From a bacterium (GTDB lineage: Bacteria > Zhuqueibacterota > QNDG01 > JAGLOF01): DNA of 64,000 bases. This document shows, piece after piece, positions 25,382 through 39,573 of the stretch. Position 1 is the stretch's first letter. The number at the start of each line of letters is the position of its first letter. Where the stretch lies: assembly GCA_016934955.1 (NCBI GenBank), contig JAFGRY010000008.1:62001-126000 (forward strand). The letters run 5' to 3'. Under the pieces are notes generated by a model. It ran no database searches, was not told the DNA's origin, and was given only the letters and a program-made list of their open reading frames with translations. The translations under genes were made by a program, and so were the position numbers.

Positions 25382-25508
25382 GGGCGCACGGCTGTGCGCC
25401 TGGAGACTATGCGGGTTTCGGTATCGGTATCGCAAATCGGTATTCGAAGGTGAAAAGACAGAGCGAGAGAGCGAAAAAATGGTTCATGAGGTGATGGCGT
25501 AAATAAAC

Positions 25509-25547
25509 AATAATCAATATCCAACATTCAATTACCAATATCCAATG
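25509..25547. repeat. AT-rich direct repeat (CAATATCCAA x2, 21 nt apart)
   Basis: CAATATCCAA at 25516-25525 and 25537-25546 within ATAATCAATATCCAACATTCAATTACCAATATCCAAT. Confidence 0.75.
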
Positions 25548-25565
25548 ACCGGGTGCCCGTGTCCC

Positions 25566-25658
25566 GGCCTGACCTTGTGACAAGTCTTTCTGTATGATCT
25601 GGTTAAACACTCCTCTTCCCGGCAGACAGTGACGATGGACTTGTCACAAGGTCAGGCC
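25566..25658. repeat. dispersed palindromic element, copy A
   Basis: Perfect 21-bp inverted repeat GGCCTGACCTTGTGACAAGTC (25566-25586) / GACTTGTCACAAGGTCAGGCC (25638-25658); 51-nt loop. Confidence 0.9.
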
Positions 25659-25855
25659 TCTTTTCGTTGGAAACGTGGGGTAGGGCGGATGGGCCGGCCA
25701 CCTGCCTCCGGTCTCCTGCCTCCGGCCTTCCGGGTAAGACGCACGGCCGTGTCCCTCTACCGTATCCTTTACCCTTGTTTTAAAAACAATTCTTCCCGAT
25801 TCTGCGTGTTTTTTAATTGCTTGTTACCTCTTTTTTCCCTATACTTAACTCTAAT

Positions 25856-35874: not shown

Positions 35875-35917
35875 AAACGCCTGCTGAAGGAGTCCTTCAG
35901 CAGGCGTTTTTTTATTG
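35875..35917 (+). terminator. rho-independent terminator
   Basis: AAACGCCTGCTGAAGGA-G-TCCTTCAGCAGGCGTTT followed by T-run. Confidence 0.9.
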
Positions 35918-36969: not shown

Positions 36970-37506
36970 ATGAAGCGGAAAAACAATCCCCTGATGGCTC
37001 TGCTGCGGGAGCGGCAGAGCATCAGGTCCTATACGGACAAACCGGTTGATCCTGGAACGATCGATCTGCTGAAGGAGGCGCTGCTGCTCTCCCCCAGCTC
37101 CCGGGGAATCAGGCCCTGGCGGTTCGTGTTCGTGGATGACCGCGATCTTCTGGGAGAATTGTCCCGGGTGAAGCCCCACGGCGGGGCGTTCCTGGCGAAG
37201 GCGCCGCTGGGGGTGGTGGTCTGCGGCAGCAGTGACGAGTCCGACGTCTGGATCGAGGACTGCTCCATCGCCTCGACCATTCTTCATCTTACGGCCCACT
37301 CCCTGGGCCTGGGCAGCTGCTGGATCCAGATACGGCAGCGCAAGCACGAGAGCGGGGTGTCCGCGGAGAGCGTGGTCAGGGACCTGCTGGACCTGCCGGA
37401 GTCGCTGCACGTGCTTGCGATCATCGCCGTCGGGTATCCCGCCGGGCCCCTGGAGCGGGCGAAACCGCCTGAGATGGAGTTCGGGAAGATCGTTCACACG
37501 CGTTGA
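36970..37506 (+). CDS. nitroreductase-family protein
   Basis: LLRERQSIRSYTDKPVDPGTIDLLKEALLLSPSSRGIRPWRFVFV...GLGSCWIQIRQRK. Confidence 0.9.
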   Translation: MKRKNNPLMALLRERQSIRSYTDKPVDPGTIDLLKEALLLSPSSRGIRPWRFVFVDDRDLLGELSRVKPHGGAFLAKAPLGVVVCGSSDESDVWIEDCSIASTILHLTAHSLGLGSCWIQIRQRKHESGVSAESVVRDLLDLPESLHVLAIIAVGYPAGPLERAKPPEMEFGKIVHTR

Positions 37507-37511
37507 TTATT

Positions 37512-37547
37512 TTGTGACAAGTCAATTTTTGGGATGACTTGTCACAA
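37512..37547. repeat. dispersed palindromic element, compact copy B
   Basis: TTGTGACAAGTCA (37512-37524) / TGACTTGTCACAA (37535-37547), 10-nt loop. Confidence 0.85.
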
Positions 37548-37575
37548 GGTATGCAGGCAGGCGGTCACTCTACAC

Positions 37576-37685: not shown

Positions 37686-37919
37686 ATGAGTGTGGCAACC
37701 GTGGGCGCCCGTTTTCAGGTGGTTATCCCCCTGAAAGAGCGGCGCAGGGCGGGCCTGAAACCGGGCCAGAAGGTCAATGTGGTTCTCGAAGAGGGCCGCA
37801 TCGTGCTCGAACCGGTGGGAACACAGCAGCTGCGGGGACTGCTGCGTGAAACGGACGATCCCTATGACGCAGTCGATTATATTAATAAACTGCGCCGGGA
37901 GTGGGAAGAGCGCTCATGA
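37686..37919 (+). CDS. AbrB/MazE-like antitoxin
   Basis: SVATVGARFQVVIPLKERRRAGLKPGQKVNVVLEEGRIVLEPV SpoVT-AbrB fold; 4-nt overlap with PIN toxin. Confidence 0.88.
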   Translation: MSVATVGARFQVVIPLKERRRAGLKPGQKVNVVLEEGRIVLEPVGTQQLRGLLRETDDPYDAVDYINKLRREWEERS

Positions 37920-38359
37920 CCCTGCCGGAGACACTGCGCCGCAGGGAAGGGGTCGTGATCGATACAAATATCTGGATCTATCTGCTGCAGGATCATCCCC
38001 GCTTCGGCTCGACCGCCGATTTCATCATCACCCGGGCTCAGGAGGGGGAGTTCACCGCGGTGATCACGCCGATCACCGTCGCGGAACTGCTGACCGGGCC
38101 GCTGCGGGACGGCCGGATGGACCTGGCCGACCGCATCCGCAGCGGCCTGAGGGGACTGGCGGGGGTGAGACCGGTCGACCTGCCGTTCGAGGCCGGGGAG
38201 GTGGCCGGCGCCCTGCGCGCGAAGTACGGCCTGCCCCTGCCCGACATGATGCAGGCGGCCGTGGCCATGCGCTCGGCACGACCGGCGATCATCACCAACG
38301 ACCGGCAGCTGCAAAGAGTGGAGGAGGTGGAGGTGTTTTTACCGGAGGCGTTCGCGTGA
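37916..38359 (+). CDS. PIN-domain toxin (VapC-like)
   Basis: VVIDTNIWIYLLQDHP, ITVAELLTG, GLPLPDMMQAAVA, PAIITNDRQLQRV. Confidence 0.9.
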   Translation: MTLPETLRRREGVVIDTNIWIYLLQDHPRFGSTADFIITRAQEGEFTAVITPITVAELLTGPLRDGRMDLADRIRSGLRGLAGVRPVDLPFEAGEVAGALRAKYGLPLPDMMQAAVAMRSARPAIITNDRQLQRVEEVEVFLPEAFA

Positions 38360-38410
38360 CAGATCCTCTTCTCGGAGGCGCCGGAAGACCTTTCACGATA
38401 CTGCGGCATG

Positions 38411-38423
38411 ACATGTCACAAGG
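38411..38423. repeat. dispersed palindromic element, half-site C
   Basis: ACATGTCACAAGG, one mismatch to ACTTGTCACAAGG, followed by CAGGCAGGCGG as in copy B. Confidence 0.6.
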
Positions 38424-39488: not shown

Positions 39489-39573
39489 TTACCTTGTGAC
39501 AAGTCTGTCCTGAGTATATCGGTAAAACCTCATCAGACACCGGTACGGTACAGAACGACTTGTCACAAGGTAA
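39489..39573. repeat. dispersed palindromic element, copy D
   Basis: Perfect 17-bp inverted repeat TTACCTTGTGACAAGTC (39489-39505) / GACTTGTCACAAGGTAA (39557-39573); 51-nt loop. Confidence 0.9.

Follow-up and report, generated by a model that had tools for sequence, protein, structure and literature searches.

In this work, we are presenting an analysis of a dispersed palindrome, one copy of which (copy A) lies at positions 25566-25658 of the window, that is, of the whole 64,000-nucleotide (64-kb) stretch of DNA analysed. With good probability this palindrome is a non-autonomous mobile element of REP/REPIN type, having as its likely cognate enzyme a RAYT transposase encoded elsewhere in the same genome (C2 RAYT). 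The first-pass annotation had left the choice between a MITE, a REP/RAYT-dependent palindrome and a conserved structured RNA; the REP/RAYT option is supported by a Y1 gene flanked by the repeat, by about 30 copies in the genome, by an in-frame insertion in a gene and by the same design at relatives of the transposase.

Copy A is composed of a 21-nt left arm (25566..25586, plus strand), a 51-nt spacer (25587..25637) that shares homology with those of other long copies, and an inverted 21-nt right arm (25638..25658, minus strand); the arms are 100% complementary, exactly as the perfect 21-bp inverted repeat had been annotated. The left arm contains the outer arm GGCCTGAC and the core CTTGTGACAAGTC (25574-25586). 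Copy A has as neighbours the gene of a PALP-family enzyme on one side and, on the other, a gene whose product combines exonuclease and helicase domains. The core does recur at 37512, 38411 and 39489 as reported, but only the last position belongs to a second full long-form copy (39489..39573, intergenic, with 17-bp arms TTACCTTGTGACAAGTC and a 51-nt spacer). The position at 37512 falls in a degenerate pair with a 12-nt loop (37510..37549), which starts 3 nt past the stop codon of the nitroreductase gene (36970-37506) and whose left arm opens with TT in place of CC, and the one at 38411 is a lone intergenic arm, a remnant with one mismatch and no partner (38410..38423, minus strand). The other copies in the window are likewise intergenic, around the genes of this nitroreductase, of a PIN-domain protein and of a protein resembling steroid dehydrogenases. 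With up to two mismatches allowed, CCTTGTGACAAGTC is present at 8 sites in the window against 0.28 by chance, a number which none of the window shuffles attained. A tRNA/tmRNA search of the window gave none. Two of the window copies flank an AbrB-like/PIN-domain gene pair (37686-38359) which is probably a toxin-antitoxin system of VapBC type. At 35875-35909 there is a perfect 17-bp inverted repeat (AAACGCCTGCTGAAGGA, loop of 1 nt), unrelated to the family studied here and possibly a terminator or another repeat.

Genome-wide, the 4.4-Mb assembly contains 52 exact arms (58 if at most one mismatch is tolerated), together with 23 exact inverted pairs; the reversed pair pattern occurs 0 times in it. 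In total there are about 30 dispersed elements, so that of the tens to hundreds of intergenic copies proposed as a check, tens are present but not hundreds, and one of them lies in a gene. As in REPINs, the dispersed unit is an inverted doublet with a set-length spacer, while the copy number stays below that of REPINs, commonly over 100 in extragenic space. The loop length is fixed less strictly than supposed: two of the three window pairs have 51 nt but the third has 12 nt, and the genome-wide spacing is bimodal, with a long class of 51/52 nt and a compact class in which the 13-nt arm cores are mostly separated by 2-5 nt (by 3 nt if an extra C-G pair lengthens the arms), spacings of 12 and 18 nt being rare cases. 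The core CTTGTGACAAGTC is common to both classes. Near the RAYT gene the compact copies have mostly ..TA-CTTG and the long copies mostly ..AC-CTTG, and therefore both classes often start with TTAC. The GT[AG]G tetranucleotide is not found at the 5' foot, where the sequences TTAC, TGAC, GGCT and others are read. As part of the same explanation, and with the same good probability, the unit is built of two inverted REP-like modules, located either about 51 nt apart or nearly back to back. In each module, the mini-palindrome CTTG-TGA-CAAG would stand between a variable foot about 6 nt long (often ..TTAC) and the tail TC; the compact form would join two such modules by a loop of usually 3 nt, and the long form, as copy A, would keep them about 51 nt apart.

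The genome has three Y1-type transposase genes. One of them, outside the window (G000:C2:4901-5479), encodes a 192-aa RAYT-type Y1/HUH transposase and is directly flanked by compact palindromes at C2:4809-4839 and C2:5488-5518, which is the arrangement of a transposase between copies of its repeat known from REP/RAYT systems (REPtron). The co-occurring Y1/RAYT transposase, named as a sign of mobility, is therefore present with the same palindrome on both sides. The densest palindrome cluster of the genome surrounds this gene, with seven elements (six compact and the long C2:2083) within 4.2 kb, from C2:2083 to 6311; when 30 elements were placed at random, at least 5 fell within 4.3 kb in 0 of 100000 trials. 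The protein scores 26.6 bits against Pfam Y1_Tnp, above the cut-off of 23, and it has the HUH motif (H60-F61-H62) and the single tyrosine Y120 in YIHLNP, of the Y...NP type. Against NCBIfam REP_Tyr_transpos (NF047646) it reaches 63.9 bits (E 1.4e-17), below the curated cut-off of 80, and the match to E. coli TnpAREP 4er8 is weak (E 0.003, residues 47-146 aligned). In the E. coli enzyme, W94-Q95 lie in the GTAG-reading stretch (PMC6006769); the residues MQ aligned to them would fit a foot other than GTAG, as far as a single weak alignment can indicate. The gene is present in one copy. We consider the C2 Y1 enzyme (HUH, single tyrosine) the most likely cognate enzyme of the palindrome, with CTTGTGACAAG as the candidate arm/hairpin in this pairing. 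Between compact palindromes beside the RAYT gene there is also a PemK/MazF-like toxin gene with a small upstream partner (L031:5525-6155, G000:C2). A second Y1 gene (L067:2340-3460, G000:C30:101839-102959), with EHIH and YIHRNP motifs, is flanked by GTAG-type repeats GTAGGGTGGGTC..GACCCACC, separate from the palindrome under study, and looks like an ordinary REPtron of canonical type.

Relatives of the C2 RAYT occur in 34 of the 82 genomes of the phylum. The named genomes provided 105 candidate stretches encoding such a relative; their RAYTs are at most 43% identical, and at their loci the studied palindrome was not found in quantity. The flanks of 103 non-redundant RAYT loci were surveyed for hairpins with arms of at least 12 bp within about 200 bp of the gene. 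Hairpins were present upstream at 34 loci, downstream at 35 and on both sides at 25, and in 11 of 1076 control windows taken 0.6-2.4 kb from RAYT loci; many distant RAYT relatives of the same survey have no such flanking hairpins. Flanking by a hairpin pair is frequent for RAYT relatives of the phylum and is also seen for some outside it. The loop is exactly 3 nt in 63 of 76 hairpins, and the arms hold a nested palindrome in 45 of 73, compared with 15% of shuffled arms. The arm cores CCTTGCGAAGG and AAGGTAACCTT each mark one RAYT clade with strong support; among GTGC-type arms, the three from the phylum group together and the fourth, from another genome set, falls apart. Each RAYT has its own repeat family, in that arm cores follow RAYT clades and the C30 RAYT goes with its separate GTAG-type repeat. 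The CCTTGCGAAGG element, whose 3-nt loops vary widely in sequence, is scattered through 20 of the 82 genomes in up to 12 copies each, and a minority of its pairs have long spacers. Since hairpin flanks recur and the arms track RAYT clades, the association of hairpins with RAYTs is both repeated and specific, and chance at a single locus does not account for it.

Further support for mobility comes from the copies which are associated with a coding sequence. An aminotransferase gene contains a compact copy at C2:3070, which is read through in frame; at this place nine homologues of the same phylum are shorter by exactly 14 residues, and the same gap is seen in the two solved homologues that match best. 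The 42-bp insert is nearly equal to the 43-bp palindrome including its outer arms, which suggests that the outer 6 nt are part of the element. A second copy, at C2:3327, provides the stop codon of the same gene. The intergenic position described for the palindrome consequently holds for the window copies, but not for every copy in the genome. Among the compared genomes, which include no close strain, no clean empty site was found at DNA level, and target-site duplications are not apparent by eye in the flanks of the copies inspected.

The loop of the long form had been described as variable in sequence, and the spacers are indeed diverged, but they are not random: eight non-redundant 51-nt spacers from two genera share 34.6 bits of information versus 20.7 (sd 1.3) in shuffles, which marks the spacer as an old homologous segment keeping its length. 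The sister genus G016, of the same family, has 6 exact pairs, five of them with 51-nt spacers, and the other 80 genomes of the phylum have 0. None of the RAYT relatives of G016 adjoins the palindrome, for which both loss of the RAYT gene and an assembly gap are possible, the assembly being about 87% complete. Past the palindrome, the flanks of copy A and of the copies at C42:9596, C44:26959 and C44:39646 are 78-87% identical and form part of a mosaic intergenic repeat (window 25480-25660 and three other places) made of an A-rich 'cgaaagaaacgaaaaag' part and a 'ttggacattggatattgg' part, both also found alone, without the palindrome, at many places. These four copies are related by descent and are not countable as separate insertions. 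It could be argued from this that the long copies, copy A among them, are passengers of a larger repeat spread by recombination or duplication and not by transposition of their own. We regard this as unlikely for the family, because the long copies at window 39489, C29, C34, C2:2083 and in G016 have other flanks and C2:2083 belongs to the RAYT cluster; passenger spread can be true of some long copies without displacing the main explanation, and duplication of the larger repeat may be part of their dispersal. C45:52591, considered as an empty site inside the larger repeat, was rejected since its ends are not clean. Matches to the A-rich flank at G000:C17:11284, 11422 and 11560, spaced by exactly 138 bp, suggest a tandem array.

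The palindromes could also serve as RNA or DNA structures with a function (stabilising mRNA 3' ends, as attenuators or terminators, or as sites of protein binding) and be kept by structural selection, the RAYT link being a by-product. The hairpins are very stable (single-strand z-scores from -4.6 to -11.8), copies are mostly intergenic and the one at 37510 starts directly after a stop codon. As to the compensatory arm changes suggested as a mark of RNA function, 16 to 29 of 35 elements retain pairing at outer arm positions 1-6, where the column make-up predicts 9 to 16, and two to four pair types occur there; the independent pairing changes are fewer than apparent because subfamilies are mixed in the 35 elements. 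The same palindrome is present on both strands, so pairing is unable to separate RNA from single-stranded DNA, and TnpAREP enzymes also require a folded hairpin, as single-stranded DNA (PMC8266576); kept pairing alone does not, therefore, mean RNA function, and the REP/RAYT reading does not need it. An Rfam search of the window gave 0 matches at gathering thresholds, one copy lies within an aminotransferase reading frame, seven are clustered at one transposase gene, and relatives have the same RAYT association with different arm sequences, all of which makes selection for structure quite improbable as the explanation. Descent as an old MITE from a common DDE insertion sequence with such terminal repeats would account for the inverted repeats at the ends and the fixed internal length of the long form, but target-site duplications are not apparent by eye in the flanks inspected, the compact form has nearly no interior and the transposase of the cluster is Y1, not DDE, which leaves this origin extremely unlikely. 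Two other identities were rejected. Integron attC sites have ends reading RYYYAAC...GTTRRRY, and those of the C2 cluster do not; CRP-like TGTGA/TCACA sites have a different half-site spacing, and one of the sites is a coding insertion.

For the REP/REPIN-type element, we infer movement by the C2 RAYT through a single-stranded intermediate. The element would fold into its module hairpins when single-stranded, e.g. at the replication fork, and the RAYT would bind a hairpin, cut near the foot or the tail and join the cut strand at a new site, with some preference for nearby DNA; presumably the enzyme is active today. Counted against the REP/RAYT reading are the missing GT[AG]G foot, the NCBIfam score below its cut-off and the position of the G016 RAYT relatives away from the palindrome. 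As the palindrome works like a REP/REPIN-RAYT system but has neither the GT[AG]G foot nor a high copy number, we file it as a variant and not as an ordinary member. More tentatively, and with less than even chances, it may represent a separate REP branch, common in the phylum and present beyond it, whose mobile unit would be a compact 'mirror' of two self-palindromic modules, lacking a GTAG guide and having a loop of 3 nt in which the sequence is free. If so, the combination of fixed arms, a fixed loop length and free letters in the loop would imply either an enzyme that reads two hairpins at set spacing or a second arm which, in transposition or repair, is copied across the loop from the first one. 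REP systems are known mainly via the GTAG foot, which automatic searches demand (PMC6006769), and a foot-independent rule can now be offered: matching hairpins on either side of a Y1 gene, with a 3-nt loop and self-palindromic arms. Several cognate arm/RAYT pairs of differing sequence allow hairpin reading and cut choice to be tested without GTAG, and, to judge from the aminotransferase insertion, a conserved enzyme can gain residues from such elements.

In the openly accessible literature searched, no name was found for the studied repeat. It resembles the IS200/IS605 family (IS608) in the Y1 HUH transposase and in subterminal hairpins read as single-stranded DNA, the target of IS608 being TTAC; unlike in that family, here the hairpin element is repeated and the transposase gene is single-copy in the genome. 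In the REPINs of Pseudomonas fluorescens, two inverted REPs with a set-length spacer form the unit, single arms look like remnants and each family has a Y1 gene (PMC3116915). All three features are found here, but the GTAG foot is absent, there are about 30 copies and not hundreds, and beside the long form there is a compact one, in which the loop is 3 nt. The nearest published forms found are the double-palindromic TIRs of TIRYTs (PMC3733652) and the 'double foot' REPs (PMC6006769). In TIRYTs, as in our case, a RAYT-like gene stands between inverted repeats that are self-complementary and have no relation to GTAG REPs, and some of these repeats are dispersed; the GGGGWSAS common to many of those TIRs is absent here, and the 3-nt free-sequence loops which are the rule here do not seem to be described there as one (PMC3733652). 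'Double foot' REPs (TnpAREP subclass 2.4), known in Bacteroidetes and various phyla and explained as a collapsed inverted REP pair, share with our element the long hairpin with a foot and its complement and the in-frame gene insertions, but their ends are GT[AG]G..C[TC]AC, whereas here the outer ends vary and TTAC..GTAA is common (PMC6006769).
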